This document shows positions 11,501 through 35,992 of a stretch of DNA of 64,000 nucleotides, in pieces. Origin of the DNA: a virus; IMG/VR virus record IMGVR_UViG_3300030333_002216, positions 1-64,000 of that record; one strand, written 5' to 3'. The translations under genes and the position numbers were made by a program. The notes beneath the pieces were generated by a model, which saw only the letters and a list, made by a program, of their open reading frames with translations, ran no database searches and had not been told where the DNA came from. Positions within the stretch are counted from its first letter, which is position 1. Each line of letters begins with the position of its first letter.

Positions 11501-14500
11501 AATCCAAACATGGCTGAATCTGATATTGTTATTCCCCTTTGCCCTATCTTGCTTATATTCATCTGAACTGTTTGACCCACTGAGATTGTCAATATTGAAA
11601 TCTGTTGTCCCAAACAATCGGAACGGTTGGACACCTGCGTATTCTGTGCTTCCTTCGTATCTCAAAAGCCCTGTTTGTGATGCACCTCCGGGGTTTAACA
11701 CATCATAGAGAACGTTAGGAAGCCATTCGGTTCCTTGAGTGTCAGCACGATGCGAAGCAACAAACCCATTGATGCCCCCAGCATATTGATTGTTGCTATA
11801 CGCACTAGCGGGGTATGCACCTATCTTGTCTTTCTGGTAGAAAACATCCCCATCTGACTCACCTACTGTATCAGAAACATACACACCATCATTGTCTATT
11901 GCAATCCCATTTGTCGAGGTTTCCACTGTTGGGGTGAGGTCTGCCTGAACATAATCGAATGTCTTCACTGTAGGTATGTCTTCTGCTTTCTCAGGAAGCG
12001 ACTCATAGTCTACTGGATTGAAATGCCAATCGAAGGTTGCTTCCACTAATCTCATGACTCCGAATCTTCGTGCTTGATTGGTTGTCTGCGTGGCAGAGGA
12101 CATGGGTGCTTCTTCAAACATGTTAGGTGATTGAAGGGTTTGTTTGGTTTGACCCGTATATTTCTGATGAGAGGTTTTTCCAGTGTTGAAGGATTCAGAC
12201 TCTAGAACCATTGAGAAGTCCTCGTAGTTCTTGGTGTGATAACCTAGATTGTTATGTCTGAGTTTAGATGAGGGGAAGGAATCTCCCACGGCTAGGAGTT
12301 CATATGTCTCTGACTTCGGGTCAATTTGCTCAAAGGAGGAATATTGTATATCCTGTTCAAAGCCATCTGTCTTGTATCCTGACCTACTAGCATATATTGA
12401 ATCGTTTTGACTTTCTATGCTTGGATATGATTGTATTATTGGCGTATCATTTTGGTCACCACAGAAATTAGCAACATATGTCCAACCGTTTATCGTGTTA
12501 CTACCAGCAAGTGGCTTGTTGTCTTGGGTGGCTGTAGGGGTGAATACAGTGCCATTGGTTCTCACCCCATAGCCCACACCGTATCCTTGTATTTTCTGGT
12601 TTCTTCTTCCACCATTGTAGATGCTACTATGCGTTTTACTTATTGTTCCGGCATCGAATTTCTGTAAATCCCAATAGCGTATTGTTTCCTTGGGGCCAAA
12701 ATAACCAGAACCACTGAAGGTGTCTTGCAGTCTATGGATGAATCCACCAGTGTCTATGTTATTGTTCACTAGATATATATTGCAGTTTCCTCTATTATCA
12801 GAACTATTACCATCTAGCCTTCCTAGAACCACTGGGAATATCGGGGCAACAGACAGGGTTGTTTGCCCCTCATCCTTCTCATTAACCTGCACGACATTGA
12901 ATGATTCCTTATTGATAGTTGCAATATCTAACTTATCAACAGTAACGCCATTCTCATTTCCAGCATTGAATGCGAATATGGAGTCATTAGTGGATACTGC
13001 CTTGGGGCTTGAGATATCATATCCTAAAGTCCTGTCTTCCGTGTAGTTACCAGTGTTTGAGGTGGCTTTCAGTTCGTCATATGTGAATGCTGATGAATTC
13101 ACACCGAAAGTTCCACCTAATGATAATCCACTATTGAAGCCCAGCCCCTTTTCACTGATAGATGTGAAACCATTGATACCTGAATCATGCAATTCGTTAC
13201 TGGCTAATGCCTTCGTTCCTGTAATGTAATTGACCCATGTAGAATCATATGGGTGATAATACAACAAAGACGTTGTTGTAGTTGGCGTAGCATAGGTTGT
13301 ATCATAGCAAGTTATCCTATCCGAGGTGCTACTGTAATTCTCCTCATATTGCTTGACTTCACCGATTAACTCCCCTGCTTGATTCATAATCAACCCGTGT
13401 CTCTTAGGGGTTAAATTGGGTGTTCCAGCCCATGTGATATAGGCATTTGACCCAGAGATGCTAAGACTGCTTATCCCAGTTATCGCTGTAGCATTGAGGA
13501 TTGGTGGAATTGAAGTGTGTATCACATCTTCCATGAAGGTAGTGTTCTTGGTGACTGTTTGTGAAAGCAATTTGGAGGTTTCATCCCTACCAACTACACT
13601 GTAAGTGGTCAATCCGTGTTCGGACTTGCTAGACACATCCTCGACAATCCCATTGAATGCTGAGTCGCTTATGGCATACCCACCACGATAGTAGTAGAAC
13701 CTGCTGGCATTCTCATTGCTTCTTTGGTAGAACACCCTATCAGAGTCTTGAATCTTCAGGAACTTGTTATCCTTGTCTCCATAGTCAATCTTGTTGTCAT
13801 GCCCATTATAGATACCATTGACTAATCTAGCATTATACAGTTTGGTATTCTTCTTCTCAATAGTAACATCCGACATGCTGAGTTTACTAGTCGTGTAATT
13901 ATACTCCGTGTCTGGTTCAAGCGTTGTGTTAATCACACCAGTGTAGGGAGGTAGGAATAGTGTCTTCCCAGAGAAGTTCTCTGCTACCGCACTACCACTC
14001 CAAGTATTAGCAGTCTTGAGTTTCTTGTTCTTTATCGTGATATTCTGAGTTCCACCTGATTGAGCCGCTACAGACGCAACGGCATAATGATACCCATCAA
14101 TCTCTATAATGTCATCATTGCCTAGTATATTCCTTAAGTCCGTTTGTTTCCTTATGTCGCTCATTACGATTATAGATGTATTAGAGGAATCTCTAGCCGC
14201 CTTTCCTTCAAATGCAATCAAAGCCAAATTATCATTGTGAATGTTTCTTTCAAGAACCAATGTGTCTTCTTCTTTGATTTTCATATGTTGTATGCCGCTA
14301 TTGTCCAATATATTGAACTGGGCTAATTGGCTCATCTTATTTCTTGGTTGATTTAGTATTGCCTCAGTTATGAGAGGAATCTTGTTATTTTTGAAATTCG
14401 CTTTTTCAAAGGTGATATATTTCCCCGGCCCAGTCATGTTCCCATCAAGGGTATTTGCTGTTACTGAGTCAGAGTTGGCTGTGTGTCTATGCATCTTAGG

Positions 14501-15757
14501 AAAAGCATTCTCCCATTTGTGGAAGTTACTAGAGTTACTATCATCAGAGGTTTTGTTAGCATCTACGAGAGTGGCCTCCATCCTGTCCTTACCTAGACTG
14601 TGAATAGTGTTTCCAAACTTACCTTCAGTTCGGAATGCCACATTGTGAGCAGTCTTCCCTATTTTAATGTCAAAATTGGTGGTAGTGCCACTTATTGCTA
14701 TTCTAGCATAATCTATTCTAAATTTGTTTGTTAATGCTGTAACATTGGTGATGTTGCCTAATAGCACATTACTAGCATTAAACACAGACATGCCTATGGA
14801 GAGTTTCAAGTCATCATTGGCATCGTTTAAAGTAAATTCCTTAGAACTACTACCCGCTTCATATTGGGCATGAGCATCCACTGCCGTCACTACAAGGGTG
14901 GTAGGATAGTTCCACCACCTTAGATGGGTGAGGTTGTATTTGGTCATGTAGTCCAATTGGTCTTTTTCATCCAATCTATCATTGTAGAAATACCAAGTAG
15001 GACGACTGCAATGCGCTACTCTATCGTGCTTTGGCGTGGACGTTGACGTATCACCCCTCAGTCCATAACTGACTGCTACTATATCCGTGGCAGTCTTGGC
15101 TGGCCCCTTGTAAATCTCAAACTTCGTGTTTATTGATACCTCTGTCGGGTATGCTGGGGAGAACTCAAGACCATCTCCGAACTCATCGAATGATATTATC
15201 CTAGTTACCTTTGCAAAATGTGGTCGCAGTGTGTCTGTTCCCATCTGATATGTATCAGGATTCAAGAGGATGAAATAGTCATAGTTCTCTATATCCAAAC
15301 CTACTTCCTCTGTGGCTGGGTAATCAGAGGTAGAGTAAACGAACTTCCTGTTTGTCTCTGAATTAGCAAGTTGGGAATCAAACACCTTGACTTTGAATGA
15401 ATGTGTCTCATCTCTATTAATAGCGTAATCTGTTAAAGTGTTATTACCCGGATACAGCCTATTCCCAATCTTATCGCCATAGTCATTGCTGATTGCGCCG
15501 CCATGTGAGGTGTTTCTTATCTCCATGAAGTTAGCGGAATTAACTAGAGAACTTCCACTGACTGAGTTCTCGTATTGTAGGTTGTTCTGGACAATGGTAG
15601 GATTGACAGAGACAGACAGATATGCTTCGGTGGTTCTAGCAAAGTGGCTACCATAGTCATAGTCTGCTTGGTTTTGAGCCGTTGCTTCTAGAATATCAGT
15701 ATCCCTCTTTCCCGCATTCAACGGGAACACTGCCTTACCGTATACACTCGTTCCCAT
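8579..15757 (-). CDS. Very large tail-tip/baseplate protein with hub-like C-terminus (2392 aa)
   Basis: The largest complete gene in the window, starting immediately after the stop of the LamG protein gene (TAAATG). Most of the chain is rich in Asn, Thr, Ser, Gly and Tyr with alternating hydrophobics, suggesting many beta domains. The last 300 residues look like a tail hub (gpD/gp27/XkdQ-like): a SLIIKRGLDYRIKNGEF stretch, then KANKIIVIG, and a segment ending LLEAGDIVRLNFPN. Small modules of the type isnGDviYtyd..LiGeVsnV...ITL recur and are shared with the neighbouring tail protein. It probably combines hub and long fibre or receptor-binding parts at the tail tip. The hub call is moderate; the other 2,000 residues are unrecognised. 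Confidence 0.65.
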   Translation of the reverse strand: MGTSVYGKAVFPLNAGKRDTDILEATAQNQADYDYGSHFARTTEAYLSVSVNPTIVQNNLQYENSVSGSSLVNSANFMEIRNTSHGGAISNDYGDKIGNRLYPGNNTLTDYAINRDETHSFKVKVFDSQLANSETNRKFVYSTSDYPATEEVGLDIENYDYFILLNPDTYQMGTDTLRPHFAKVTRIISFDEFGDGLEFSPAYPTEVSINTKFEIYKGPAKTATDIVAVSYGLRGDTSTSTPKHDRVAHCSRPTWYFYNDRLDEKDQLDYMTKYNLTHLRWWNYPTTLVVTAVDAHAQYEAGSSSKEFTLNDANDDLKLSIGMSVFNASNVLLGNITNVTALTNKFRIDYARIAISGTTTNFDIKIGKTAHNVAFRTEGKFGNTIHSLGKDRMEATLVDANKTSDDSNSSNFHKWENAFPKMHRHTANSDSVTANTLDGNMTGPGKYITFEKANFKNNKIPLITEAILNQPRNKMSQLAQFNILDNSGIQHMKIKEEDTLVLERNIHNDNLALIAFEGKAARDSSNTSIIVMSDIRKQTDLRNILGNDDIIEIDGYHYAVASVAAQSGGTQNITIKNKKLKTANTWSGSAVAENFSGKTLFLPPYTGVINTTLEPDTEYNYTTSKLSMSDVTIEKKNTKLYNARLVNGIYNGHDNKIDYGDKDNKFLKIQDSDRVFYQRSNENASRFYYYRGGYAISDSAFNGIVEDVSSKSEHGLTTYSVVGRDETSKLLSQTVTKNTTFMEDVIHTSIPPILNATAITGISSLSISGSNAYITWAGTPNLTPKRHGLIMNQAGELIGEVKQYEENYSSTSDRITCYDTTYATPTTTTSLLYYHPYDSTWVNYITGTKALASNELHDSGINGFTSISEKGLGFNSGLSLGGTFGVNSSAFTYDELKATSNTGNYTEDRTLGYDISSPKAVSTNDSIFAFNAGNENGVTVDKLDIATINKESFNVVQVNEKDEGQTTLSVAPIFPVVLGRLDGNSSDNRGNCNIYLVNNNIDTGGFIHRLQDTFSGSGYFGPKETIRYWDLQKFDAGTISKTHSSIYNGGRRNQKIQGYGVGYGVRTNGTVFTPTATQDNKPLAGSNTINGWTYVANFCGDQNDTPIIQSYPSIESQNDSIYASRSGYKTDGFEQDIQYSSFEQIDPKSETYELLAVGDSFPSSKLRHNNLGYHTKNYEDFSMVLESESFNTGKTSHQKYTGQTKQTLQSPNMFEEAPMSSATQTTNQARRFGVMRLVEATFDWHFNPVDYESLPEKAEDIPTVKTFDYVQADLTPTVETSTNGIAIDNDGVYVSDTVGESDGDVFYQKDKIGAYPASAYSNNQYAGGINGFVASHRADTQGTEWLPNVLYDVLNPGGASQTGLLRYEGSTEYAGVQPFRLFGTTDFNIDNLSGSNSSDEYKQDRAKGNNNIRFSHVWICSPTVQSTNFNWTKRLVNSSDVSKRFDGHDIIIPLISEEYKGTWDDSNVSSGLFLREPDFKDRRISAFNHFTSANGHRHISRVIAGLYHRDLSNTTANRTFRYSVGISNNYSGSLAHIYDGCIGVFRGFKQGADVHLPQFGADIIGVDDITLSTELTLDTEANYSAYVSSNTHDFEQTTRNTMVQQYTRVKTTVATAYTDGQTSLVLADITGFGLNGGNGWINGTPFSWTSGSEGSKTLTVPDLNADYAVGTVVEQSRDSLAMTGTKAKTSILALNPTLSDYDVDDEAPRLYRGTNATLRNVTMGGGGTSGTDTTHTKGGVFSAQMLVKPVFDFSNASVSSQTATFTLDSNTKHAWLSYMPDLTGYYLVSEQYNHDIPNGSTKATVRNTIGNNLPSAIMKITSHTVSTAPTTSATEVQQIVFDTVINTTTHGNKWRLMRPSEVTFENQEKEIKFNTLLDDGKGRDWRTGGAREGDDPTYSESVYHMYLLLDIDNANSTIERRTPALALTPFSDLADGDVLDMHVTDGQHNDRRKIVVKKTIEIDEDTSRTGLTLEFDGELNGNGVVSFGEVFDITLGRKPKLKEIKKCHIGTTYSIGSQLEKEVENIVKLAGLDYNATRSFSKPTGNIISSGTTSSTTITCTENVTGISNGDVIYTYDGHLIGEVSNVSSAVITLTKKYYAPAQNDEIVLINKKTFVTNLKFDNSNMYNALNSLIIKRGLDYRIKNGEFITRNIEDTDSLRKYALSYKESGRLIKVGANKSMFDKANKIIVIGDKVQYELEEPTKKQVRAVKVIDPTIKTRTDAETKAVELMEIYSEGTRKIDVELQKQGLELLEAGDIVRLNFPNHNIPIDDYMVFEIENVLAGTLKLKVGTFDKTIAERLSELSTRQSDDSTVLLGRDAVVLSAGKFLFDAIKLKNISFSYKITGSSNALSYNSNMGFDDLVGFTEEVGFEHSTVTKKSYQDKFYQQEDYA

Positions 15758-23650: not shown

Positions 23651-24748
23651 TCACGAAATGAAGTATACCATATTTGCCTTGCCCTTCAAAGTCGCATTAG
23701 CCTCTTCTACTAGGATATCGTGCTTCGTCTTCAAGTCAATATTAGATTGCGTTTCTGCGATTAGGATTGAGTTGTCATCATGTCGTATGACTTCGGCGGC
23801 AACTAGTTTCGTAGCGGCATCATGAATGGTAGCGGGAACCCTGCCTTCACCTGCGACATATGTGACTCTTACTGAGTGTCTCTCCAAGTATGGATAATTC
23901 TGATGGAAGAATATCTTACCCTCATCTCCTATAGTCCAATAATCACCCATCCTACGCTGGTCTTGATTGTCAGTGAAGTTAGTGACTGACCCATATGTCG
24001 AGGAGATTGTGCAATTAGTTCCATCCTCTCCCATTAGCAAGGATGAGATGACAACCGTAGTGCTATCCTCACTGTTAGTGGTGGCATAGAAGAAATCAGA
24101 TATGTTGACTGAGTTTCCAGTATCCTGAAGCGATTTAGCGGCAGTCTCACCAGTGAACTTAGCCGTCTTCATTGGATATACCTCGTTGATTGCATCGACA
24201 ATCTGACTAGCAGTCGTCTTAGCACCGAAGTTGTCATAGAAATCCCTGACAGAGTTATCAGCCAAATTCCTGATATTGAACGTGTATGTCGTAGGAGAAC
24301 CAACGGTGAGGGCTATAGTCCAGTCGTTTGTAGTTGCAGTAGACGGAACCTTCAGAGTAGCAGTAGCAGAAGCCAAGTCTACCCATTCAGTTCCTTGCCA
24401 TACCTCTAACCTAACTATTTTCTGCACTTTAGGATACGATAGTTGAACGAATCCTACATAATCCTTGTATGTTCGTAATGGGTATTGTCCTTGTTGAAAA
24501 CCCTCAAACGAATGGAACTCGTCTTTGTAGATAGTTGGTCGATAAGAGGTCTTCGTCTTGTCATCTATCTTCTCCTCGACTCTCTTGATTATCTTCCCTA
24601 CCTCTGCAATAGTGGGAGTAGTTGAATTGGTAAACGAATTGATTTGAAGGAGATTGGAGACATCAGTATGTGTGGTGTAATACCCAGTCCCATTAGTGTA
24701 GTTGGGATTGATTGCTGTGAAATCACTAGGTGAGGATACCTTGCCCAT
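23651..24748 (-). CDS. Head-tail connector (adaptor) protein with inserted beta module (365 aa)
   Basis: The N-terminal helices (TIAEVGKIIKRVEEKIDDKT) and C-terminal helices (IHDAATKLVAAEVIRHDDN, then IDLKTKHDILVEEANATL) resemble adaptor proteins that bind under the portal. Residues about 130-265 form an insertion with ITV-type strands, an ASQIVDAINEVYP helix and an SSLLMGEDGTNCTISS end. This matches the repeat module found three to four times in the LamG tail protein. The start overlaps the preceding stop at 24748. Confidence 0.6.
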   Translation of the reverse strand: MGKVSSPSDFTAINPNYTNGTGYYTTHTDVSNLLQINSFTNSTTPTIAEVGKIIKRVEEKIDDKTKTSYRPTIYKDEFHSFEGFQQGQYPLRTYKDYVGFVQLSYPKVQKIVRLEVWQGTEWVDLASATATLKVPSTATTNDWTIALTVGSPTTYTFNIRNLADNSVRDFYDNFGAKTTASQIVDAINEVYPMKTAKFTGETAAKSLQDTGNSVNISDFFYATTNSEDSTTVVISSLLMGEDGTNCTISSTYGSVTNFTDNQDQRRMGDYWTIGDEGKIFFHQNYPYLERHSVRVTYVAGEGRVPATIHDAATKLVAAEVIRHDDNSILIAETQSNIDLKTKHDILVEEANATLKGKANMVYFIS

Positions 24749-26742
24749 TAGTTCACCAGCCCCTTCAATCTATTGTATCCCAACTTCAACTCCATTAGGG
24801 TTTTGAAATCCTTCTCCTTATCTGATGCAACATCTCCACCTACGGCTCTAGCAGTTGTTGGCCCCTTTCCGCCAAGAGGCCCACGCTTGTCCTTTCCTGT
24901 TATTGGCTTACCTTCGTAGTCTTGACTTGGGGTGAACATCTCGTATTTCCTAGCACTGACTAGTTTGGTTGGGGTGAATGACACTCGTAGTTGAATCATG
25001 CCTTTCTTCTTTTTACCAGCATCCAATACGGGGAATGCATCTCCACCACCAGAATGTCCTCCTCCTCCACCTACTGAGCCTATTGACCTATCAGATGGCT
25101 TTTCCTCACCTCGTCTATCAGCCGTTGCTGGAACTTTCTTAGTTCTCCAATGTGGCTCCATCCCTTCTTCCTCCTCTTTCTCCGTGGGTTCATACCAGAC
25201 TCTCTGTTCGACTTCCTTCCTATATTTCTCTGCTTTTGGTTTGTCTGTAGGGGTTCCTTGGATGTCTTGTTTTGCTCTGCGACTCTTTATGTCTGCGTTT
25301 ATTGATTCTAGGGCATTCTCGACACCAGAGGCAAATTGACCCTCACGATGATATCCGATTTTTTTACCCTCATCTCCCCTAGCCATGTCTTTTTCCAATG
25401 CATGTCTCCAAATGGCATTAGCCAAATCATCAACTAAATGATAGTCACTACCATCTGGCTTATCATTGTCCTCCCAGATATCATACAGGTCTTCTGTTGT
25501 CAAGTCCTCAAGAACCCCATCTTTCATTGATTGAACTTTCTGCATGTGTTTGGACTCATCAATACTACTGAATGTGCCATCTCTATTGAAAATAGGGAAA
25601 GCATAGTTTAGTAGGTTCTCTATCTTCGTTACTTCTGGATTCGTTTCAGAAACCTTCCCCTCTAATGCTCTAACCCAATTCTTCCAACTCTTATTGCTAA
25701 TTGGTTCCGTCTTACCAAAACCAACCCTACCCTTGTCACCCTGTGATAGTTGGTCAACGTGTATCACCAACTTGCCAACATCCAACATCCTGTCGTCTGG
25801 TTCTACGACTGAATATAGGATATCTGACAATGGGGATTTCTTCTGTGATAGAATGGTATCCTCTATGTGCTTTTCCAGTTTCTCAAGGTCAGTTGCATTT
25901 CGATATACGTCCCATGCTTCATCAATGTTATCAACTGTTCTAGTCTTGTCGAATCCCTCAATGCGATATCTACCATCATTGGTATTGCTAATGCTGAATA
26001 TCTCTACGGTCTTCTCTATCTCGCTGGATTTCCTCGGACTAGCCACCACTAACTCTGAATCATCCAACTTGCCAAAGCCTTCTGCTTCAGAGATTTCAGA
26101 GAGATATTTCTCTGTATCGAACTTAATTTCATGACCGTCTACTTTGATATGGCTTCTTATCTCCTCGTATAGTATTGGTCTTGATTCTAGGAATGCTCCC
26201 ATTAATCCAGCAGATTTTCCCTCTTCTTTAGCACCATGAGGAAGACCGGGTTTGAAGCCCTGCTCTGTGGTCTTAGCATCGAACATTCTCTGTGTTTTGT
26301 TGTTATCCAACAAGTCATTCATAGTGAAGTCCATCTCTTTCATCTTGGATAGAATGTTTCTAGGAATCACCGATGCAGACAGTAAGTCCTCTTGTTCCAA
26401 TGCCGCTATGACTTGTGGTATCGTAGTAGAACCAATGGTCTGAAAGAATGCTCTCTTGTATTCTCTGAACTCCGCTTCATCGAATTCATACTCCGTTTCT
26501 GCATATTCCTCATTGAACTCCTGTTGAGTTAAATCCAACAAGTCTCCCAATCTACCTTGGATTAGTTCCAAGGCGTGTCTTGCCTTCGCCTTATGTGTCC
26601 TTTCTACCCAAGAGAAGGGATATGCTAACATCCATCGAAAGAGTTTGTTCTCCATCAGTTCTTGGAAATTGGCGTTTCTATCTCCCTCTAAAGTGAAGTC
26701 GTAATCATCGACTGAGTATTCTCTAGGTAGAAATATCGCCAT
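24748..26742 (-). CDS. Unrecognised structural-region protein (664 aa)
   Basis: A large charged protein between the adaptor and the Gln/Asn/Met-rich protein. The first 120 residues are helical with aromatic patches (LFRWMLAYPFSWVERTHKAK). The middle is acidic. A glycine-rich SVGGGGGHSGGGD linker near residue 560 precedes a strand MIQLRVSFTPTKLVSARKYEMF and a basic tail. No known domain is visible. Place suggests a minor capsid, neck or ejected protein. The ribosome binding site ATAGGTGA precedes the start. Confidence 0.55.
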   Translation of the reverse strand: MAIFLPREYSVDDYDFTLEGDRNANFQELMENKLFRWMLAYPFSWVERTHKAKARHALELIQGRLGDLLDLTQQEFNEEYAETEYEFDEAEFREYKRAFFQTIGSTTIPQVIAALEQEDLLSASVIPRNILSKMKEMDFTMNDLLDNNKTQRMFDAKTTEQGFKPGLPHGAKEEGKSAGLMGAFLESRPILYEEIRSHIKVDGHEIKFDTEKYLSEISEAEGFGKLDDSELVVASPRKSSEIEKTVEIFSISNTNDGRYRIEGFDKTRTVDNIDEAWDVYRNATDLEKLEKHIEDTILSQKKSPLSDILYSVVEPDDRMLDVGKLVIHVDQLSQGDKGRVGFGKTEPISNKSWKNWVRALEGKVSETNPEVTKIENLLNYAFPIFNRDGTFSSIDESKHMQKVQSMKDGVLEDLTTEDLYDIWEDNDKPDGSDYHLVDDLANAIWRHALEKDMARGDEGKKIGYHREGQFASGVENALESINADIKSRRAKQDIQGTPTDKPKAEKYRKEVEQRVWYEPTEKEEEEGMEPHWRTKKVPATADRRGEEKPSDRSIGSVGGGGGHSGGGDAFPVLDAGKKKKGMIQLRVSFTPTKLVSARKYEMFTPSQDYEGKPITGKDKRGPLGGKGPTTARAVGGDVASDKEKDFKTLMELKLGYNRLKGLVN

Positions 26743-26751
26743 TCAATTCAC

Positions 26752-27462
26752 CTATGCAAGCCACTTAGCCCAAGCAATGCCCTTACTTACGGCATTAGCA
26801 AGACCAAGACCACTTGCAGGTGGTGTATAGGACATCTGCCCTGTGTTAGGGTCAATCCAGTATGGGTTATTCATATTGTCATAGCCAGCAGGTGGGACTG
26901 GATATCCAGATTGGTTGTTGAACGCCATTTGTTGTTGCATCATGGCATTGTTCATTTGGACAGAAGCGTTGCCACCTTGTATCTGTGATGGGTCAACCCC
27001 ACCCGGATTTATCTGTCCCATTCCTCCCATGTTGTTTGCTGGCATTTGTTCCCCTGCTGGCATAGCGAATCCTTGTGATTCTAGATACTGTGCTTTTGCC
27101 ATTCTCCTTTGCATTATTACCTCTGAGTTTATTGCCGAGGCAAGGAGTGCTTGGAGGTCTAAGTTGATGTTAGCCTCAGTGATGTTTCCAAAGGCAGTTG
27201 TAGAATCAGAATGCATGTTCAGAATCCCAGCACTGTCTGTTTGGAATTTCAATTGTGGTAGCATTTGTCCTAGAACCTTCTCCACGGTATCCTCAATCAA
27301 TTGAGCCAATGCCGCTAGGAATGCTTCGCCGTGATACTGGAAGAAATCCTCAACGTGATTCTCTTGAAGAGTCAACAGGTTGTTCATTGTTTTGAACTGA
27401 GCCTGTTGATTGCTCTGCATCGTATTCATCAAATTTGCATTACTTGTCCCGAATAATCCCAT
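26752..27462 (-). CDS. Gln/Asn/Met-rich protein of the neck region (236 aa)
   Basis: Residues 1-120 are helical (QENHVEDFFQYHGEAFLAAL and VEKVLGQMLPQLKF). Residues 135-215 are low complexity, rich in Met, Asn, Gln, Gly and Pro. The C-terminus is a short hydrophobic helix (LANAVSKGIAWAKWLA). The start overlaps the preceding stop. No family is recognised. The disordered middle and amphipathic end could suit membrane contact or virion assembly, but that is conjecture. Confidence 0.5.
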   Translation of the reverse strand: MGLFGTSNANLMNTMQSNQQAQFKTMNNLLTLQENHVEDFFQYHGEAFLAALAQLIEDTVEKVLGQMLPQLKFQTDSAGILNMHSDSTTAFGNITEANINLDLQALLASAINSEVIMQRRMAKAQYLESQGFAMPAGEQMPANNMGGMGQINPGGVDPSQIQGGNASVQMNNAMMQQQMAFNNQSGYPVPPAGYDNMNNPYWIDPNTGQMSYTPPASGLGLANAVSKGIAWAKWLA

Positions 27463-28136
27463 TACTGCTCACTCTCCTCCGGTGCTACCTTAGCCCCCTC
27501 AGTCAATAATGTTTTCACCCTTTCGTTGATTGTGCTGGATTCTATGACAAGTCGGAACAATTCTTCTTCTCTGCTCTCTGTTTCAGAGACAGGTGGTTTT
27601 ATTGTCCACCCCAACGACCCCAATGAGGCAATGTCTGTTGCCTTGAGACTAGTCAAAGGCCCACTTGACAATGGATTGAGGGTTTGCATTGTTGGAGCCT
27701 TTGGAATGTATGCGCTAAAGGAAAGACCGTGTTCATCTGCTAGAATCTGTTGCTCTAGCATCTCATACTGTCTATGAATGCCAGCGTGTTTCTCACAGTA
27801 GGTTCCTCTCATAGGATATCCCTTGCGCACCTTGTGTAGGGGTAGTGGTGGCCTCAGATTATCACTTGCTTCCCAAACCTTGTGGGTTCCACAAACTACA
27901 CATCTATCCTTGATGTTATACTTGAACTTGTATGGTATCTTCAGGAACGTCTTAGTCTCTGGTTTGAGAATCTTGATTATCTCCTTCAGTTGCTTCTTTG
28001 GCTTTGTGTGTTTATACTCATATTGAGTTACTGCACCTGCCGCTCTCGCCGCAGATTGTCTATCCATAAATGCATTATTAGTTACGTTTGTAGAATTAGC
28101 ACCGATGAGGCTAGGTGGCTGAAACTGCATACTCAT
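27462..28136 (-). CDS. Zinc-knuckle protein (224 aa)
   Basis: C79-x2-C82 and C114-x2-H117 lie around a stretch with PPLPLHKVRKGYPMRG, a convincing single zinc-binding site. The N-terminus is Asn/Ser-rich and the basic segment KHTKPKKQLKEIIKILKP precedes the zinc site. The C-terminal half is helical. It is encoded 12 bases after the GTPase gene and overlaps the next start, so it may work with the GTPase. Family not recognised. Confidence 0.5.
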   Translation of the reverse strand: MSMQFQPPSLIGANSTNVTNNAFMDRQSAARAAGAVTQYEYKHTKPKKQLKEIIKILKPETKTFLKIPYKFKYNIKDRCVVCGTHKVWEASDNLRPPLPLHKVRKGYPMRGTYCEKHAGIHRQYEMLEQQILADEHGLSFSAYIPKAPTMQTLNPLSSGPLTSLKATDIASLGSLGWTIKPPVSETESREEELFRLVIESSTINERVKTLLTEGAKVAPEESEQ

Positions 28137-28148
28137 GAGACTTCACCT

Positions 28149-28820
28149 CTAGTAGTCCTTTATCATTGTTAGGACTCCTCTGTATACCATCTCTGAGTCA
28201 GATTTAGCACTTACTATGTATTTATGACATGGTATTCCCTTGTCATTCAACTTCTGCATTCCTGTTCTGAATGCCTCAAATATGGGGTGGTTTTCTATAG
28301 GCCCATCATAGTCATACCTGTCTTTCCATAAGTCGTATTTGTTAGCCCAAATGGAAACTGCAATAGGGTAGTCTATCTCTCGCTTTTTCTTCTTTCTCTT
28401 CCTGTTATGCCAGTATGGGTCGCATATGCTATCCACCAAGAATGTCCAGCACAGTTGTTGCTCTATGTCATAGTGCTTATTCATGTGCCTATCATCTATC
28501 ATGAAGATGATGTATTTCGGTCTTCTATTACGCATGTCCTCTATCCATTCATGCCAATAGACAGTCTGTCCTCCTAAATCAGCAGTCTTCACGGTATGTG
28601 CATCACCGTCTAGTTTGACGTATTTCCTAGTAGCACGTTGCAGTCCTTCTGTCCTATGGCGTATATCAGGAACTTCTCCTCTTGTCCTGAGTTGGTGATT
28701 TAATGTCGTCTTCCCTGCTCTACTAGCACCATAGATGCCGAAGTTAATTGCGTGAACTCTTTGGTATATTTTGTTTAGTCCTTCGACTATCAGTATGGCA
28801 AACCCTGCCATTACTGACAT
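28149..28820 (-). CDS. Arf/SR-beta-like small GTPase (223 aa)
   Basis: All five G-box motifs are visible in order: G1 GASRAGKT (31-38), a G2 threonine in RHRTEGLQRAT (about 57-64), G3 DLGGQ (81-85), G4 NKYD (160-163), G5 SAK (204-206). DxGGQ in G3 is characteristic of the Arf/SR-beta/G-alpha side of the Ras superfamily. A hydrophobic N-terminal stretch (AGFAILIVEGL) before the G1 strand could anchor it to a membrane. A basic loop RKRKKKKREID lies near 140-150. It lies among head genes and is followed, upstream in the operon, by two small membrane proteins. GTP-dependent switching at a membrane is likely; the partner is unknown. Confidence 0.8.
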   Translation of the reverse strand: MSVMAGFAILIVEGLNKIYQRVHAINFGIYGASRAGKTTLNHQLRTRGEVPDIRHRTEGLQRATRKYVKLDGDAHTVKTADLGGQTVYWHEWIEDMRNRRPKYIIFMIDDRHMNKHYDIEQQLCWTFLVDSICDPYWHNRKRKKKKREIDYPIAVSIWANKYDLWKDRYDYDGPIENHPIFEAFRTGMQKLNDKGIPCHKYIVSAKSDSEMVYRGVLTMIKDY

Positions 28821-28824
28821 TCAA

Positions 28825-29049
28825 TCACCACAGATGATTCCAGAAATCCACTAAACTGTTCCAAGCGATTGACAGGGTATTGACACCTGCAATTGCCATT
28901 GCTTGACCTAAGACAAAACTGCAAGCACAGGCCACTGCACCCCAAAACCAGAATCTAGCCCTGAGAAACCAGATGTCAGCAGAATGCGCTCTTTGTAGGT
29001 CATAGGCGAGAGTCGATTCATCCATTCCGAATAAAATTTCGCTGACCAT
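28825..29049 (-). CDS. Small membrane protein (74 aa)
   Basis: After a short charged N-terminus (FGMDESTLAYDLQRAHSAD) there are one or two hydrophobic segments (WFWGAVACACSFVLGQAMAI and a weaker VNTLSIAWNSLVDFW). It ends four bases before the GTPase start. No family is recognised. It may be a membrane anchor or partner for the GTPase. Confidence 0.55.
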   Translation of the reverse strand: MVSEILFGMDESTLAYDLQRAHSADIWFLRARFWFWGAVACACSFVLGQAMAIAGVNTLSIAWNSLVDFWNHLW

Positions 29050-29061
29050 TCATATGCCTCA

Positions 29062-29499
29062 CTACTGCTCAGTCTCCAATGTTAGGAAAGAGCCTACTCC
29101 TTCCTTTGTTGGGTTTAGGTTAGGTAGGTTACTATCCCCATATATGTTAGTTGGGGAAGCGACAGTTGTGTTCCAATTCTGCTGGAATTGCCTGAAGGAT
29201 TCTCTGACTCTCTTGCGGTTCTCCTCTTCCCTAGCCTTTCTAGCCCAATAAGCATCTATTCTTCGCTGTAGTAGGTATTCCTCAATCCAGTCATTAACGA
29301 CCATATCGAACAATGCCTTCATTATCATTATCCCACCAATGGTGCTAATCCCGAAGAGCAATGAATGCTCAACCGCACCGTAAGGGAACGTTATTCCATA
29401 TTGGGAATAAAAGTAGATGTTTATTCCACTGACTGCTCCTACGAACAGTATTGTCATCACTAGTCTTGTGTCTGTATCTATACTTGGCATATTAATCAC
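29062..29499 (-). CDS. Membrane protein with basic cytoplasmic tail (145 aa)
   Basis: Hydrophobic segments lie at about 12-32 (VMTILFVGAVSGINIYFYSQ) and 45-68 (HSLLFGISTIGGIMIMKALF), followed by a highly charged region rich in Arg and Glu (RRIDAYWARKAREEENRKRV) and a Pro/Asn-containing tail. It overlaps the upstream gene by four bases. It is part of the membrane/GTPase group inside the head operon. Holin or membrane-remodelling roles are possible; neither is shown. Confidence 0.55.
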   Translation of the reverse strand: MINMPSIDTDTRLVMTILFVGAVSGINIYFYSQYGITFPYGAVEHSLLFGISTIGGIMIMKALFDMVVNDWIEEYLLQRRIDAYWARKAREEENRKRVRESFRQFQQNWNTTVASPTNIYGDSNLPNLNPTKEGVGSFLTLETEQ

Positions 29500-29804
29500 G
29501 CATATTCTATTGAGTAAGCACCTGTTCCAGTGATATCAACAAAGATACCATTTTGGCATACTACCCCATGCATGTCGTATTCCAATGAGTTCCCTCTGGT
29601 TGCACCAGTGGAGTGTATTTGCATTCGTGCTACTTCTACTTCACCTGCTGAACTTGGGTCGTTATCTGCACTATCGTAGACCTTTACGGTGAATGTTCCA
29701 TCTGTGACTGTAGATGCTCTAATTGAGATTAGTTTACACCTACCCTTGGTAATAATTGCGTCAGCAGTTCTGACACCACTACTGAAGCATGTGCCACTAC
29801 TCAT
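29496..29804 (-). CDS. Small beta-rich virion protein candidate (102 aa)
   Basis: A compact beta-rich sequence (KLISIRASTVTDGTFTVKVY, and FVDITGTGAYSIEYA at the end) of the type common in small phage decoration or fibre-head proteins. It directly follows the SAP-protein gene and overlaps the next gene by four bases. Function is inferred only from fold pattern and neighbours. Confidence 0.5.
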   Translation of the reverse strand: MSSGTCFSSGVRTADAIITKGRCKLISIRASTVTDGTFTVKVYDSADNDPSSAGEVEVARMQIHSTGATRGNSLEYDMHGVVCQNGIFVDITGTGAYSIEYA

Positions 29805-30287
29805 CTAAAGTCCACCCCTTCCTTCTGTTAATCTCTCGATGAGGTCTGCTTTTTTACCTTCTGTGGAAAGTTTCCTCTCTTCTAGGTGTTCCTTCAAGAC
29901 CTTAACAGTGAGTTTGTTTAGGTCAGGAGGAAGAGGAGTTCCCTCTTTCTCTTCTTTCTTTGGTTCTTCCTTTACTTCTTCTTTGACTTCTGGAACCTTG
30001 GTTCTACCCATTATCTTCTCTTTTCTAGAACGAGGATATAGAGAATCCATAACTCCCTTCGCATCAGGCCCACGCAATTTGAGGTGCTTGGCTAGGTGCT
30101 TCACCTTCTTAGGTGAGGTTTCCATTAGTCTTTGTATGGTTGCCTTATCATCAGCAGTGAACTCTACCTTGACGTTTCTATCGCCGTATAGAGTGATTGC
30201 ATCCCTAGTTGAAACTTTAGTTCCGTTACTGTCAAATCTATAGTTCTTCCAAGTCATCTTGCCAATCTTGCTTCTAACTACTGCCAT
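29805..30287 (-). CDS. SAP-domain protein (160 aa)
   Basis: The last 38 residues (about 123-154: LTVKVLKEHLEERKL, then GKKADLIERL) match the SAP helix-extension-helix motif that binds DNA. It is preceded by a Lys/Glu-rich linker. Residues 1-90 hold a separate small domain with YRFDSNGTKVSTRDAI, and KKVKHLAKHLKLRGPDAKGVM, which also looks helical and basic. Phages often use SAP-like tails on internal or neck proteins to touch packaged DNA. The start has a GGTGA ribosome binding site just downstream of a strong RNA hairpin. Confidence 0.65.
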   Translation of the reverse strand: MAVVRSKIGKMTWKNYRFDSNGTKVSTRDAITLYGDRNVKVEFTADDKATIQRLMETSPKKVKHLAKHLKLRGPDAKGVMDSLYPRSRKEKIMGRTKVPEVKEEVKEEPKKEEKEGTPLPPDLNKLTVKVLKEHLEERKLSTEGKKADLIERLTEGRGGL

Positions 30288-30731: not shown

Positions 30732-32102
30732 CTATGCACTCGTTAGGTTCGTTATCTTTCCTTGGCCCTTGAAGAAGGAGCAACCAGTCTCGCCCATTGT
30801 GCGATACATTCCCTGATTCCCTAGAGAACCAACGCCGAATGGGTCACCATTGGTAATACCGTTCTCAAAGTATTGAGTAGGCTTCATGACCGATAGCCAC
30901 AGATGGTCTGTGTCTAGTAGCATGATGTCACTCAACTTGTTAGCCGTTGCGTTACCAGTCTGTTCCATGTCCTTTGCTGGGATAATTGGGATGTCGTAGT
31001 AAGTGGCGACCCTAAAGCCAACCTCTGCACCCTTCACTCCTCTTACACCGTTGTGCGTTGGGACAATCTCTTTCCTGTCCATGAACCTCTCTTGGCTCTG
31101 TAGCAGGTCTGAGATGTGCTGGATAGTATCGTATCCAGTTATCATAACCTTGGGGTTTCCACCGTTCTGCCTGATTCTCCTAATCATGTCGTTTAGAAGA
31201 GTCAGTGTTAGAACTCTTGCGTCACCAGCCGCGTATCCTGCACCGAAGTCAACCTCAGCCGAAAGGAAGTTATCCGTTCCGGTGTAGTCCTCTCCGCTTC
31301 TGGTAACAGTCCTGTCATCTCCGAAAATCCTAACCAGTTGTGTTGGTAGGTCAGATGGCCCTGAACCTGCGGCAACCATATCTGCGTCACCCATTGCGGC
31401 TAGTTCACCAGCAGACGACACTATCTTGTATAGTGACGTATAGTTGTTCTCGATGTCAGCATAAGATGCGTGGTCGTAATGCTCAAGTGGCATTAGTAGC
31501 ATCTTGTTCTGAACCTCTGCGTGGTGCTTACCCATGTCCTCTCTAACGATTGAGCGGATGTCTCCTACTCCATCGTCAATTGCGGCCATCTCCATTCCGA
31601 GTTCTGAGAACTCAAACAGATGTGCAACAGTCTTTGGACTGACGTATAGTTTGGTGTATTCTGGCGACAATGCTCTGAAAGAAGCATCTCCACCAAGTTC
31701 AGCGTTCTCTGCAACACCACCAATCATGTCGGCGGCTATTCCAGATAGGTCAGCCGTGTTTGCACCGGGGTCAGTTGTTCCAATACCGAATGCAGAACCA
31801 CTACCACCAGCAGGTCGGCTCTTTAGAACTCTCCAACCACTGGAAGTGTATGGCCTCTTGGAAATCATTGACAGTGCATTGACTTCCTGATTTAGCATCG
31901 ACCAGACTTTCTGTCCGTATAGCAAGTTGTAAAGGTCACCTAGACCACTTGCCGCACTGAAGGCATTCGATGACGCATCGTGTGGCGTTCCGAATCCTCC
32001 AACTACTCCACTGCTCTTTAGCAGGGCGTTCCCTGTTCCTCCGACCATGCCGTAGGTTGCGGCTTCTAGGTCTGCCATTGTTCTAATATGTCCTGTTGTC
32101 AT
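30732..32102 (-). CDS. Major capsid protein, HK97-fold type (456 aa)
   Basis: It directly follows the protease/scaffold gene, and its ribosome binding site GAGGTGAT is one of the strongest in the window. Features consistent with HK97-type capsid proteins include an N-terminal arm with YNLLYGQKVWSMLNQEVNAL, an E-loop-like region, a spine helix region (LTLLNDMIRRIRQNGGNPKV, then MITGYDTIQHISDLLQ) and a closing beta domain (ILLDTDHLWLSVMKPTQYF). There is no long N-terminal delta domain, which fits scaffold being supplied by the neighbouring protease-scaffold protein. It forms the icosahedral shell. Confidence 0.8.
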   Translation of the reverse strand: MTTGHIRTMADLEAATYGMVGGTGNALLKSSGVVGGFGTPHDASSNAFSAASGLGDLYNLLYGQKVWSMLNQEVNALSMISKRPYTSSGWRVLKSRPAGGSGSAFGIGTTDPGANTADLSGIAADMIGGVAENAELGGDASFRALSPEYTKLYVSPKTVAHLFEFSELGMEMAAIDDGVGDIRSIVREDMGKHHAEVQNKMLLMPLEHYDHASYADIENNYTSLYKIVSSAGELAAMGDADMVAAGSGPSDLPTQLVRIFGDDRTVTRSGEDYTGTDNFLSAEVDFGAGYAAGDARVLTLTLLNDMIRRIRQNGGNPKVMITGYDTIQHISDLLQSQERFMDRKEIVPTHNGVRGVKGAEVGFRVATYYDIPIIPAKDMEQTGNATANKLSDIMLLDTDHLWLSVMKPTQYFENGITNGDPFGVGSLGNQGMYRTMGETGCSFFKGQGKITNLTSA

Positions 32103-32113
32103 ACTTCATCACC

Positions 32114-32785
32114 TCACTGATACCTCTCCACAATACTGTGAATGTCACTCCAAGACATCTCGGATGCATCGGACGTATTGGTTGGAAGTCCCTCTGGAAC
32201 CTCAAATGCAACTTCCTGTGCTTTCCTGATATCTTCGCGTTCTGCCGAAAGGGACTTGCGTAGTTCTGCGAACTCTTCCTTAAGTGCCGCTACGTCTGTG
32301 CGAGCATCATACTCTGCTCTCTCAGCCTCCGACTTCTTTACAGACAGTTCTGCATCTAGACGCGCACTGAACTCCTTGTTAAGGGAATCGTATGCCATTG
32401 CCTCTAACTTCTCGGCCTTGAATGCTTCATATGCCTTCTCGACATTCTCCGCACTTAGGTCAAGAGTAGAGAAATCAGCATTCTCTAATCCCTTAGAAAC
32501 CTTCAGAGGTGCAGGGGTTGCAGTTGGGTTTCCGCCACTAACAACTTCCTCGCCAGCCTCATAGTCTCTTGTTGAGTCCTCATCAAGAGCCTTTTCCTCA
32601 CTGTCGTCTGAAAGTTCTAGGTCGTCTTCGCCGCCTGTTTCTCCCAAATCCTCTTCGGGTTCGGTGTCCATATACTCGTCACCTTTCTCCATTATTTCTT
32701 CGCTTTCTTCTTCCTTTTGGAGCGAATTGACCTGCTTCATCAGGCTATTCAACTCCTCAAGGGCTTTTTCCAGTTTTCCACTCAT
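32114..32785 (-). CDS. Candidate nested scaffold protein (in-frame internal start, 223 aa)
   Basis: Met182 of the protease-scaffold protein (ATG at 32785) is preceded by GGAGGA with a seven-base spacer, a strong internal ribosome binding site exactly at the protease/scaffold boundary. Starting here gives a free scaffold, MSGKLEKALEELNSLMKQ onward. This is the arrangement of lambda C and Nu3. Separate expression is inferred from sequence only. Confidence 0.55.
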   Translation of the reverse strand: MSGKLEKALEELNSLMKQVNSLQKEEESEEIMEKGDEYMDTEPEEDLGETGGEDDLELSDDSEEKALDEDSTRDYEAGEEVVSGGNPTATPAPLKVSKGLENADFSTLDLSAENVEKAYEAFKAEKLEAMAYDSLNKEFSARLDAELSVKKSEAERAEYDARTDVAALKEEFAELRKSLSAEREDIRKAQEVAFEVPEGLPTNTSDASEMSWSDIHSIVERYQ

Positions 32786-33328
32786 TTTCTTTTCCTCCAT
32801 TTTTAAAATGTCGAATTTTGCTTCCGGGTTTATTCCTTTTTCACAGACAGTAACTTCATGCAACTCAAGTTTTTCTATCTCGTTGTATTCCCCAAACTCC
32901 TCAGATTTTCTCTGTTTCTTTGATATCGCCTGTCCACCTATGCTGAAAGACCGTAATGTTCCTTTCCTAATACCTCTTGAGATTTCCTTAGCCTTCTCGA
33001 TGTCATCGCGCATCTTGATTACTACATAGAACCCAACATCGTCTACAGCAGTTTTGTGTAGGACACCGTTGGAATCTCGGTATTTTTCTATTACCTCCCC
33101 GACTTGAACATTTGAATGATTTGACATTACATTTCTGTATTTTTCTTTCGTCATATATTTCTTGACTGCTTCTTCCAATGCTTCTAGTGTTATTAGGTCG
33201 TTTTGCTTGTCTACAATTTCTATAGATGCATACCCTCCAATTACTAAATTATCTGATTTCAGAATGCTAAACTCAGCATTGTTTTCTGCCTTCAATAATA
33301 CTCCTGTTGTTGCTAACACTCCAATCAC
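32114..33328 (-). CDS. Prohead protease fused to scaffold domain (404 aa)
   Basis: Residues 1-175 fit the caudoviral prohead serine protease family (S78/U35): VMSNHS with likely catalytic His71, LRSFSIGG with Ser129, and an LELHEVTVCEKGINPEAKF strand. Residues 180-390 are acidic, coiled and low in aromatics, typical of scaffold. The last residues MSWSDIHSIVERYQ match the short peptide found at the N-terminus of many other proteins here. The listed start is GTG 33328, but GTG 33319 lies better behind AGGTGAT and is preferred. The protease should cleave scaffold and perhaps tagged cargo during head maturation. Confidence 0.8.
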   Translation of the reverse strand: MIGVLATTGVLLKAENNAEFSILKSDNLVIGGYASIEIVDKQNDLITLEALEEAVKKYMTKEKYRNVMSNHSNVQVGEVIEKYRDSNGVLHKTAVDDVGFYVVIKMRDDIEKAKEISRGIRKGTLRSFSIGGQAISKKQRKSEEFGEYNEIEKLELHEVTVCEKGINPEAKFDILKMEEKKMSGKLEKALEELNSLMKQVNSLQKEEESEEIMEKGDEYMDTEPEEDLGETGGEDDLELSDDSEEKALDEDSTRDYEAGEEVVSGGNPTATPAPLKVSKGLENADFSTLDLSAENVEKAYEAFKAEKLEAMAYDSLNKEFSARLDAELSVKKSEAERAEYDARTDVAALKEEFAELRKSLSAEREDIRKAQEVAFEVPEGLPTNTSDASEMSWSDIHSIVERYQ

Positions 33329-33349: not shown

Positions 33350-35992
33350 CTACTCGCTCTTTTCCTTGGGAAATGGCAAATTAGCCCATTTATCTTCGGT
33401 AATTTTCCATACTCCCTTATCCTCTTTCTTGTCTAGCATTTCTTGTTTCTTTCCTGTCCAAGCCAACCATGCCTTCTGCTCATCTAATGGCACTACGCGA
33501 AGATGCATTCTAGTCTGGAACTTGTCACCATCCAAACGATACTCATGATAGCCATCCTTCTGAACTCCTAGTTCTAATTCACCAGCGTCCAATAGTTTGT
33601 TCTCATTAACGGAATCAGCAACTATAGCGGGGAATTTACCTGATTTCCCAAATAGATTGAATACGTCTTCCGTATCTTCTATGTCTATAGTCCAAACCAT
33701 CTTCTCTTCGCCAGCAGAAATAACGAAGTCTATGTTTCCGTCTTCTCGTTGATAGAGTTGAAATTCGCCATTTTTAGGAGTGTCTTTTTTTTTCACTTCT
33801 TCTATGTCCTTCTCTAGAACATCATCCATCGCTTGGAACTTGTTAGGATGGACGTATTGGATATCTCCCTGCTTCTTCATCCAAGACATTAGCCTTTCTG
33901 GTTCACTCTCAAACAGTTCTTCAAAGACCTCACTGTAATATTTCCCTACGAACTCAACTATCTTGTCGAAAGGTTTTGGCTTGTCTCCGTATTCGATAAT
34001 GTCATTCCTGATTCCCATTCTGAGTTCAGACCTCTTGGTCTTCAATATCTTGCTGAGTTCTTCCTTCCACTCATCTATGTTGTAGAGGGCGTTCTTCTGC
34101 ATCAACTCATCTCCCTCAAAACCGTAAATGGTAAATCCATCCAAGTCACTCTTCAGGATAATCTCAGCAGTTCCGTGTATACCATCAGTGATGTAGAAGC
34201 CCTTCTTCACCTTCTTCTTCTTTTTATCTCTGGCTATATCACCAGCAGTCTTTACCTTGGCCGCAGTTTGAACCCCGCTCATAACCTTGAACCTATCACC
34301 CATTGCCTTACCAGCAACATACTCTATTGCAGACTCAAGGGACTTCTTCGTCTTAGTAGAGAGTTGTTCTAGAGTATCCACCTTGTCGGATTCTGTTACT
34401 TCTGGTATCTCAATGACCTTGGCTGAATAGAGACTGAACCCATTCTTTGTCTTCTTAACCTCATCAACCTTGACTCTGACGATATCACCGACACTAACCT
34501 TCTCCTTGGTATTCAGAGCCTTCCCCACAGGGAGGTATGCCTTATCTCCCATCTCAATAGTCTTGTAGTTCCTTGCGGTTTCAGCATTGACTGGCCCTAT
34601 TCCCATGCTATAGGAATGTAGTCCCTTCTTCGTCTTCTTGTCATCCAATACAACTACATCCAAGTCAACGAACTTCTTCCACTTAATCCACTTGGGGTTC
34701 TTCTGCTTACCCATGATATATGTCGATTCTATGTCCTTGATGACGACTCCTTCAGAAGCAGGTAGGGACATTATTTCCTTTGAATAGTCCTCTACCTCCT
34801 TGATTGAATCAGCAATCCTAGTGTCCTTCTTCGATGGAAAGGCTAGGTTCTCAGTGGAGTGGGAACTGTATTGGTAGAAGAGTATGTTGATTCTCTCCCT
34901 CAATGGCTCATCTGCAACCATCTTGCCCTCATGCTTCATTATGTCGAAAACGTGAGCAGATAGCCTACCCTTGGTTTCCTTCTTGAATACATGAGATACG
35001 GTGTCTGCCCTATGTAATGGCTCATCATCAAGGAACAACGTCAATTCGGCATCCAAGATGCAATCCCCGAAGTTCTTCTTCTCCATCTCCTTTACCTGCA
35101 AGGGACATTTCTCGGTAATGTCCTTCTTGTTGTAGGAGTAGATTTTGATGTCATCCTTGTCCTTGTGTATCTGAATCCTCATTCCATCATACTTCTCTTG
35201 AACTAGCCAATCACCGCTAAATCCCTTGAGTTGCTTCAAATCATCTGTTTCAAATATGCGATACATGGGCTTGTTAGGAACCAGAAAATCTACCTCTTGC
35301 TTCTCCTCTTCACTCTTCTCTGCCTTGACGACATCCAAATCCACCAATGCATCCCATTTGTCTTCAGGATATGTATCATTATACATCTCCTTCAATCTAG
35401 CAAATGCTCCCTTGAATTTCGATTTCACCCTACGAGTGTCTTTACCCTCGGCCCCATAATGCTCTATGATGTATAGGGGAATATCCTCGACTTTCAAATC
35501 CAACCCCATTGTTCCTTGTGTAATCTCATCGGGTTTCAGGTCGTGCTTCTCCCAAATCTTGTCAGGTAGCGTATTAGGATGTGACCGCATAGCATAGTGA
35601 ATGAATGATATGAATACGTCTGGTTTCTGCATGAAGGTATCAATCACATCATCCCCTAGTAATTTTGAAAATGGGTCGCTTATCTTCTCTGACTTGAATC
35701 TCATCTCCTTCACTTGTGAGAACAGTGTCTCAGCAGTTCTGGACTTTGGGTCATAGACATCATCATCGAAGAGTTCCTTCTCTTGGACGTATTTCTTCAA
35801 CTCTCTAGCGAAGTTGCTTATCTGGTCGAAGTCCTCTCTGAGTTTCTTGATAATCTTCTTCCACTTAGGGCCATACTCAGATGGGTCTTCCCTAGCAGAA
35901 AGATAGGCGAATCTGGTTCGCTCAAAGAAATCTAGAACTCTTTTCGTGAGTCCGTCTTCTTCCTTCTCAAACGCTAGACCAGAGTGAGGCAT
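33350..35992 (-). CDS. ATP-dependent DNA ligase with extra C-terminal region (880 aa)
   Basis: Nucleotidyl-transfer motifs are in order: I KYDGMR with adenylated Lys267, Ia YSYNKKDI, III DAELTLF (314-320), IIIa HVFDIMK, IV EGVVIKD (414-420), V WIKWKK (435-440). An OB fold follows to about 540. Residues 1-240 form a helical N-terminal extension that is not a clear archaeal ligase DNA-binding domain. About 330 C-terminal residues are additional, including a beta-rich end (YHEYRLDGDKFQTRMHLRVV), and are unrecognised. It seals nicks using ATP. The place between scaffold and small head genes is odd for a replication enzyme and suggests late expression or packaging. Confidence 0.85.
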   Translation of the reverse strand: MPHSGLAFEKEEDGLTKRVLDFFERTRFAYLSAREDPSEYGPKWKKIIKKLREDFDQISNFARELKKYVQEKELFDDDVYDPKSRTAETLFSQVKEMRFKSEKISDPFSKLLGDDVIDTFMQKPDVFISFIHYAMRSHPNTLPDKIWEKHDLKPDEITQGTMGLDLKVEDIPLYIIEHYGAEGKDTRRVKSKFKGAFARLKEMYNDTYPEDKWDALVDLDVVKAEKSEEEKQEVDFLVPNKPMYRIFETDDLKQLKGFSGDWLVQEKYDGMRIQIHKDKDDIKIYSYNKKDITEKCPLQVKEMEKKNFGDCILDAELTLFLDDEPLHRADTVSHVFKKETKGRLSAHVFDIMKHEGKMVADEPLRERINILFYQYSSHSTENLAFPSKKDTRIADSIKEVEDYSKEIMSLPASEGVVIKDIESTYIMGKQKNPKWIKWKKFVDLDVVVLDDKKTKKGLHSYSMGIGPVNAETARNYKTIEMGDKAYLPVGKALNTKEKVSVGDIVRVKVDEVKKTKNGFSLYSAKVIEIPEVTESDKVDTLEQLSTKTKKSLESAIEYVAGKAMGDRFKVMSGVQTAAKVKTAGDIARDKKKKKVKKGFYITDGIHGTAEIILKSDLDGFTIYGFEGDELMQKNALYNIDEWKEELSKILKTKRSELRMGIRNDIIEYGDKPKPFDKIVEFVGKYYSEVFEELFESEPERLMSWMKKQGDIQYVHPNKFQAMDDVLEKDIEEVKKKDTPKNGEFQLYQREDGNIDFVISAGEEKMVWTIDIEDTEDVFNLFGKSGKFPAIVADSVNENKLLDAGELELGVQKDGYHEYRLDGDKFQTRMHLRVVPLDEQKAWLAWTGKKQEMLDKKEDKGVWKITEDKWANLPFPKEKSE

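Follow-up and report, generated by a model that had tools for sequence, protein, structure and literature searches.

The Arf-like GTPase ArvA (also OapA; HVO_3014 of Haloferax volcanii) is needed for vesicle formation in archaea, and a release of its N-terminal helix towards the membrane has been predicted (PMC10927574). Its operon includes two partners, one of which is a Zn-ribbon protein (PMC10927574). These are ArvB, a DUF2073 protein, and ArvC, the DUF2072 Zn-ribbon. Virus-encoded small GTPases have been described chiefly in giant viruses of eukaryotes, as exemplified by the Rab protein R214 of Mimivirus, for which the acquisition of a host Rab5-type gene has been proposed and whose hosts are eukaryotic (PMC4569851). 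Magroviruses are viruses of marine Poseidoniales (PMC10768690, PMC12999244). The DNA stretch analysed here ("the window", 64,000 nucleotides) harbors a small GTPase, of a protein type that governs membranes in human cells, as a fixed, highly conserved and probably late gene of tailed viruses, the probable hosts of which are abundant ocean archaea.

The GTPase gene, its motifs and its family

A preliminary description of the window had placed a small GTPase at 28149-28820. These coordinates are exact, but the strand is corrected to minus; the plus strand is closed over this interval, being full of stops. The ORF has an ATG start and displays the following features:

28149..28820, minus strand: small GTPase of 223 aa, supported by motif, profile, alignment and model evidence
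28730-28707, minus strand: G1, 31-GASRAGKT-38
28652-28650, minus strand: codon of T57, in G2 (R56-T57)
28580-28566, minus strand: G3, 81-DLGGQ-85
28343-28332, minus strand: G4, 160-NKYD-163
28211-28203, minus strand: G5, 204-SAK-206

This motif set is far above chance in the window protein. IMG/VR scans returned 144, 155, 88 and 189 confirmed matches, varying with the query, and the alignment of relatives comprises 114 distinct full-length sequences that are 57-98% identical to the window protein. The protein is certainly a small GTPase of the Ras superfamily. The G1 (GxxxxGK[ST]), G3 (DxxG) and G4 (NKxD) motifs of this superfamily (TRAFAC), its switch-I Thr (T57) and a [SC]A[KL] G5 (S204-A205-K206) are present and invariant in the 114 sequences. 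Residue by residue, G36, K37, T38, T39, T57, D81, G83, G84, N160, K161, D163, S204, A205 and K206 never vary, nor do W89, W92 and R111, and the G motifs have thus been retained throughout the relatives. They had been described as five intact motifs, which holds for the window protein and its relatives except at one position: residue 85, the catalytic Gln of DxGGQ, is Q in 43 sequences and E in 71, having switched at least four times along the gene tree. Since most relatives carry Glu in place of this Gln, hydrolysis may be slow or different. Residue 85 co-varies with residue 35 (A or V), just before the GK of the P-loop; the pairs observed are A35-Q85 (42), V35-E85 (54), A-E (17) and V-Q (1).

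With a median pairwise dN/dS of 0.046 (168 pairs), the gene is, by sequence comparison, under strong purifying selection. Mean pairwise identity is about equal for the GTPase (0.737) and the major capsid protein (MCP, 0.723), and the divergences of the two proteins are correlated (r=0.72).

Profile matches are spread over several families. TIGR00231 small_GTP (NCBIfam) is matched by all 35 members of a 35-sequence alignment (best 2.3e-6), as is Pfam SRPRB, at best with 7.7e-5; MMR_HSR1, Roc, Arf, G-alpha and Ras score about as well as SRPRB in these members, and MMR_HSR1 leads in a more diverse set (18/18). The window protein itself lies below every Pfam cut-off, with 16.6 bits against 22.3 for PF00025 (Arf; best member E 2e-4) and 16.6 bits against 25 for PF09439 (SR-beta). 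An unrelated P-loop family as the best match is excluded. PDB sequence searches gave no match below E 0.07, so the subfamily cannot be fixed by sequence. Among the first matches of the PDB profile search, at E of only 0.07-0.13, is 8OUN ("GTP-binding protein"), whose neighbouring entry 8OUM bears the description of an Asgard archaeal Arf GTPase; in the profile alignment, at the same E-values, W92 aligns to a tryptophan of the Arf protein.

The motifs GKTT, T[VI]G, DxGG[QE]x6W and ANKxD are ones that we take to belong to the Arf side of the superfamily. Throughout the viral family, GKTT, ANKxD and W92, located seven residues past residue 85, are invariant, TVG is found in most members, and Q85 is replaced by E as counted above. 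From these motifs, a place on the Arf side is plausible. Of the earlier label "Arf/SR-beta-like", the Arf-leaning switch motifs stand, but the profile matches are scattered and below the Pfam cut-offs, the G5 (SAK) is Ras-like, and the Gly2 of Arf-type myristoylation is absent, residue 2 being Ser (or the start being shorter).

An AlphaFold2 (AF2) model built from 35 sequences is of moderate confidence (pLDDT 69, pTM 0.71), lowest in the P-loop/switch region. It predicts a six-stranded Ras fold with the order of strands and helices of that fold, to which are added a helix at the N-terminus and, ahead of beta-5, a K-rich hairpin. At E<=1e-3, Foldseek returned 1,133 matches in the PDB, headed by hits that are all Ras/Rab-type GTPases (E 1e-7, TM on the target about 0.45-0.58), and 43 matches in BFVD, to giant viruses of eukaryotes. 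A model built from only 12 sequences had G-alpha proteins as its top matches, with a TM of 0.38 and an rmsd of 12; as the top matches of the 35-sequence model are of the Ras/Rab type, a G-alpha origin is not supported. The N-terminal helix predicted in the AF2 model is hydrophobic and spans residues 2-22. Its presence only suggests membrane attachment: the best 19-residue hydropathy window of the protein averages 1.36, which is lower than in a typical transmembrane (TM) helix.

A five-gene cassette in the head-gene block

The GTPase had been reported to lie inside a head-gene operon and to adjoin two membrane proteins. Its position in the head-gene block is confirmed, and the two neighbours do possess hydrophobic segments, two in TM145 and one in TM74. 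The block is organised as follows:

33350-35992: protein of 880 aa opening the head-gene block, with residues 254-439 forming an ATP-dependent DNA ligase domain beside long extensions of uncharacterised sequence
32114..33328, minus strand: prohead maturation protease, Peptidase_S78 by Pfam/profile match
30732..32102, minus strand: MCP, SU10_MCP Pfam match, nearest named relatives in archaeal tailed viruses
29805-30287: SAP-domain protein, between the capsid gene and the cassette
29496..29804, minus strand: g102, left cassette boundary, to which a similar small gene, read by eye, corresponds in position in the sister clade
29062..29499, minus strand: TM145, two hydrophobic (TM) segments, charged tail at the C-terminus, in 171/171 loci
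28825..29049, minus strand: TM74, 74 aa, one hydrophobic (TM) segment and a conserved RAHSAD motif, in 171/171 loci
27462..28136, minus strand: g224, 224 aa, putative zinc-binding protein, in 171/171 loci
26752..27462, minus strand: g236, 236 aa, rich in Gln/Asn/Pro/Gly, last cassette gene, in 171/171 loci
24748..26742, minus strand: g664, right cassette boundary, whose sister-clade counterpart, read by eye, is an ORF of 600-890 aa
23651..24748, minus strand: g365, probable head-tail connector, matching the head region of HVTV-1-type haloviruses

TM145, TM74, the GTPase, g224 and g236 form a cassette that is found complete and in the same order in each of the 171 loci with adequate flanking sequence coverage. 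The genes are tightly packed, with gaps of 4-12 nt from TM145 to g224 (4 nt between TM74 and the GTPase directly downstream of it, 12 nt between the GTPase and g224) and a 4-nt overlap of g102 with TM145. Scans for bacterial-type promoters and terminators gave counts no higher than in shuffled sequences.

The g224 family displays the invariant pattern CxxCG ... W...D..RP ... GTYCxKH and has no family match; nor has g236, at E<=1. By eye, the stretch CVVCG..W.ASDNL...YCEKHAGIHR of g224 recalls the ArfGAP zinc finger. This candidate was rejected: the family has no match to PF01412 (ArfGAP) at E<=5, its spacer is of 31 residues instead of the 16-17 of the ArfGAP C4 finger (CxxC-x16-17-CxxC, with a conserved Arg), its second pair is CxxH, and relatives do not conserve the S/N/IHR letters that recall ArfGAP.

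At the right boundary, g664 is highly variable: of 116 related loci, just 40 have a significant match, with identities down to 20%; its neighbours hold about 50-99% identity in related loci. Elsewhere in the window, a 2392-aa ORF downstream of the tail genes (8579-15757) has no Pfam match, and a 939-aa ORF (45603-48422) gives weak matches, below cut-off, to HAMP and to the Sey1 three-helix bundle.

Probable hosts and distribution of the cassette

Among named phages, the MCP matches only archaeal tailed viruses, namely Druskaviridae haloviruses and viruses of methanogenic archaea. The relatives are 82-103 kb long, a family-B polymerase is found in 14 of 15, mostly as two separate ORFs, and an ATP-dependent DNA ligase is encoded beside the head genes. 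These traits fit those of Magrovirales: a head-tail morphology, a genome of about 90-110 kb, a PolB that is split in some members, an ATP-dependent ligase and a Druskaviridae-related MCP. Set against published descriptions, the viruses therefore resemble magroviruses, which are tailed and infect marine archaea, and the hosts of the cassette-bearing viruses are probably archaea.

Small GTPases of this class had been described as rare in viruses. No homologue was detected in other collections of prokaryotic viruses, by tblastn in 50,697 INPHARED phage records and in PHROGs, nor by tblastn in the 72,556 plasmids of PLSDB. The only match of a single GTDB scan is a contig (L081; NZMJ01000101.1, 28,935 bp) in a Maricaulis MAG. 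It carries the order ligase-protease-MCP-cassette, as in this virus group, and the match was rejected as a sign of a cellular source, the contig being a misbinned viral one.

Cassette-free relatives were sought by a scan with a capsid alignment led by halovirus HVTV-1. In viruses with an MCP at least 58% identical to that of the window, the cassette is present wherever the contig reaches far enough. A sister clade of magrovirus-like viruses (e.g. L234, L247 and L266), with MCPs 45-48% identical, shares the order protease, MCP, g118, SAP-type gene, g102-place gene, g664-place ORF and g365, and, unlike the window's group, is devoid of all five cassette genes. Nothing lies between its g102-like gene and its 600-890-aa ORF, the whole cassette being missing. 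The counterparts of g102 and g664 were identified from ORFs by eye, with no significant BLAST match between g102 and the sister-clade small gene. At the position of the SAP gene, the sister clade has a smaller gene with a SAP-like C-terminus. Whole-record searches found the GTPase in 18 of 18 carriers, one copy each, and in none of 21 records that came from the sister clade, from haloviruses or from other viruses of archaea; the records counted as cassette-free are mostly incomplete contigs, the gap itself being visible between the flanking genes.

On a tree of 91 capsid proteins, cassette presence and absence are separated by one change, on a branch with a support of 99. A single gain is the simplest reading because more distant lineages are also without the cassette. 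Two other traits were noted along this divide. Most cassette carriers (G001-G015) encode the family-B polymerase as two ORFs, the sister clade (G016-G019) as one, and a Cpn60-type chaperonin is encoded in the same sister-clade records and absent from the 15 cassette-bearing records searched.

Proposed function and comparison with known systems

The invariant GTP-binding motifs, the purifying selection, the N-terminal helix and the linkage to TM proteins are together best explained by a GTP switch located at the membrane, and the place in the head-gene block suggests an action in assembly or release. We give a probability of about one half to a membrane-bound, Arf-like GTP switch that acts, with two TM and two soluble partners, in virion assembly or release. 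The predicted nucleotide-binding GTPase would sit on the host membrane through its N-terminal hydrophobic helix, with TM145 and TM74, encoded just upstream, as membrane partners and g224 and g236, encoded just downstream, as soluble ones. These five genes would be one functional module, gained once in the magrovirus-like clade and put in the late head-gene operon, and their products may form a physical complex late in infection. On binding GTP, the GTPase would adopt a form that engages the membrane and that, together with the TM proteins, would organise or deform the host membrane during virion assembly or release. A role at the host membrane, already put forward in the preliminary description, we still infer, on grounds much strengthened by the strict five-gene cassette. 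No GAP or GEF for the GTPase was identified. Sister viruses do without the module, which is thus not a universal requirement for egress.

The head-operon position also fits a virion component. In an entry role, the GTPase and TM proteins would be packaged, delivered with the DNA and form a GTP-gated passage through the archaeal membrane. Genes located between capsid and head-tail connector genes are a frequent site of internal virion proteins, and here TM proteins are encoded in a head operon; however, no tail or injection-protein signature is present, and entry proceeds without the cassette in the sister viruses, whose head and tail genes are homologous, leaving this role unlikely. Archaeal Arf-like vesiculating GTPases exist and could be hijacked by a virus (PMC10927574), so that the viral protein might be a mimic of a host small GTPase, blocking or redirecting host membrane or vesicle physiology or defence instead of serving virion production. 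The late structural location, the MCP-like conservation, a dN/dS of 0.046 with no sign of arms-race divergence and the failure of the GTDB scan to find a close cellular homologue make such interference quite improbable. A GTP-fuelled chaperone or size switch for heads, not primarily a membrane protein, would accord with a gene that lies within the head operon, matches the MCP in conservation and diverges in correlation with it (r=0.72), but the strict coupling to two TM proteins (171/171) and the homologous capsid built by the sister clade without the GTPase render it very doubtful. Least probable is an SR-beta-like receptor recruiting ribosomes, SRP or chaperones to the membrane for the insertion of viral membrane proteins: more members match SRPRB than any other Pfam family (35/35, best 7.7e-5) and SR-beta has an N-terminal hydrophobic helix, which that of the viral protein resembles, but the window protein is under the cut-off, other GTPase families score equally, and to our knowledge archaeal SRP receptors lack SR-beta, so no partner would be expected.

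The preferred reading, a membrane-bound switch acting in assembly or release, can tentatively be extended. The GTPase, two TM and two accessory proteins might be machinery dedicated to the GTP-driven remodelling of membranes, serving to release virions or to pass a membrane. Such a mechanism would differ from lysis by holin and endolysin and from any known in tailed viruses, and would parallel ArvA vesiculation in archaea. Little is known about the passage of such viruses through the archaeal envelope or their exit from it; the cassette gives a lead, and the contrast between sister clades with and without it makes its role testable.

Among known systems, the Rab/Ras GTPases of giant viruses are likewise virus-encoded small GTPases proposed to act on membranes during assembly (PMC4569851); they differ by their eukaryotic hosts and their low identity (9-20% in structure matches). 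SR-beta (PF09439) shares a weak profile match in 35/35 members and a hydrophobic N-terminus, in contrast with a score of the window protein under the curated cut-off and no SRP-receptor partner in sight. The likeness to Arf/Arl/Sar1 proteins (PF00025; Asgard 8OUM/8OUN) extends to the GKTT P-loop, the T[VI]G of switch I, DxGG[QE] with W at +7, ANKxD and an N-terminal helix before beta-1. The viral GTPase departs from them by its sub-threshold scores, the lack of Gly2, a Gln that is often Glu, SAK instead of the Arf G5, and an extra K-rich segment between alpha-3 and beta-5. ArvA is, like the viral protein, a small GTPase, and one from an archaeon; by HMM it is itself closest to Arf, and it has a predicted N-terminal membrane-associating helix. 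Its Zn-ribbon operon partner, compared by description, recalls g224 with its CxxC...CxxH, although the g224 family has no Pfam match to DUF2072 or DUF2073 (E<=5), and the viral cassette has two TM proteins besides. ArvA is the nearest working model, which the viral system resembles by analogy at best; the cassette would add a virus-borne branch to the archaeal Arf-like GTPases and bears on the spread of membrane-trafficking switches.
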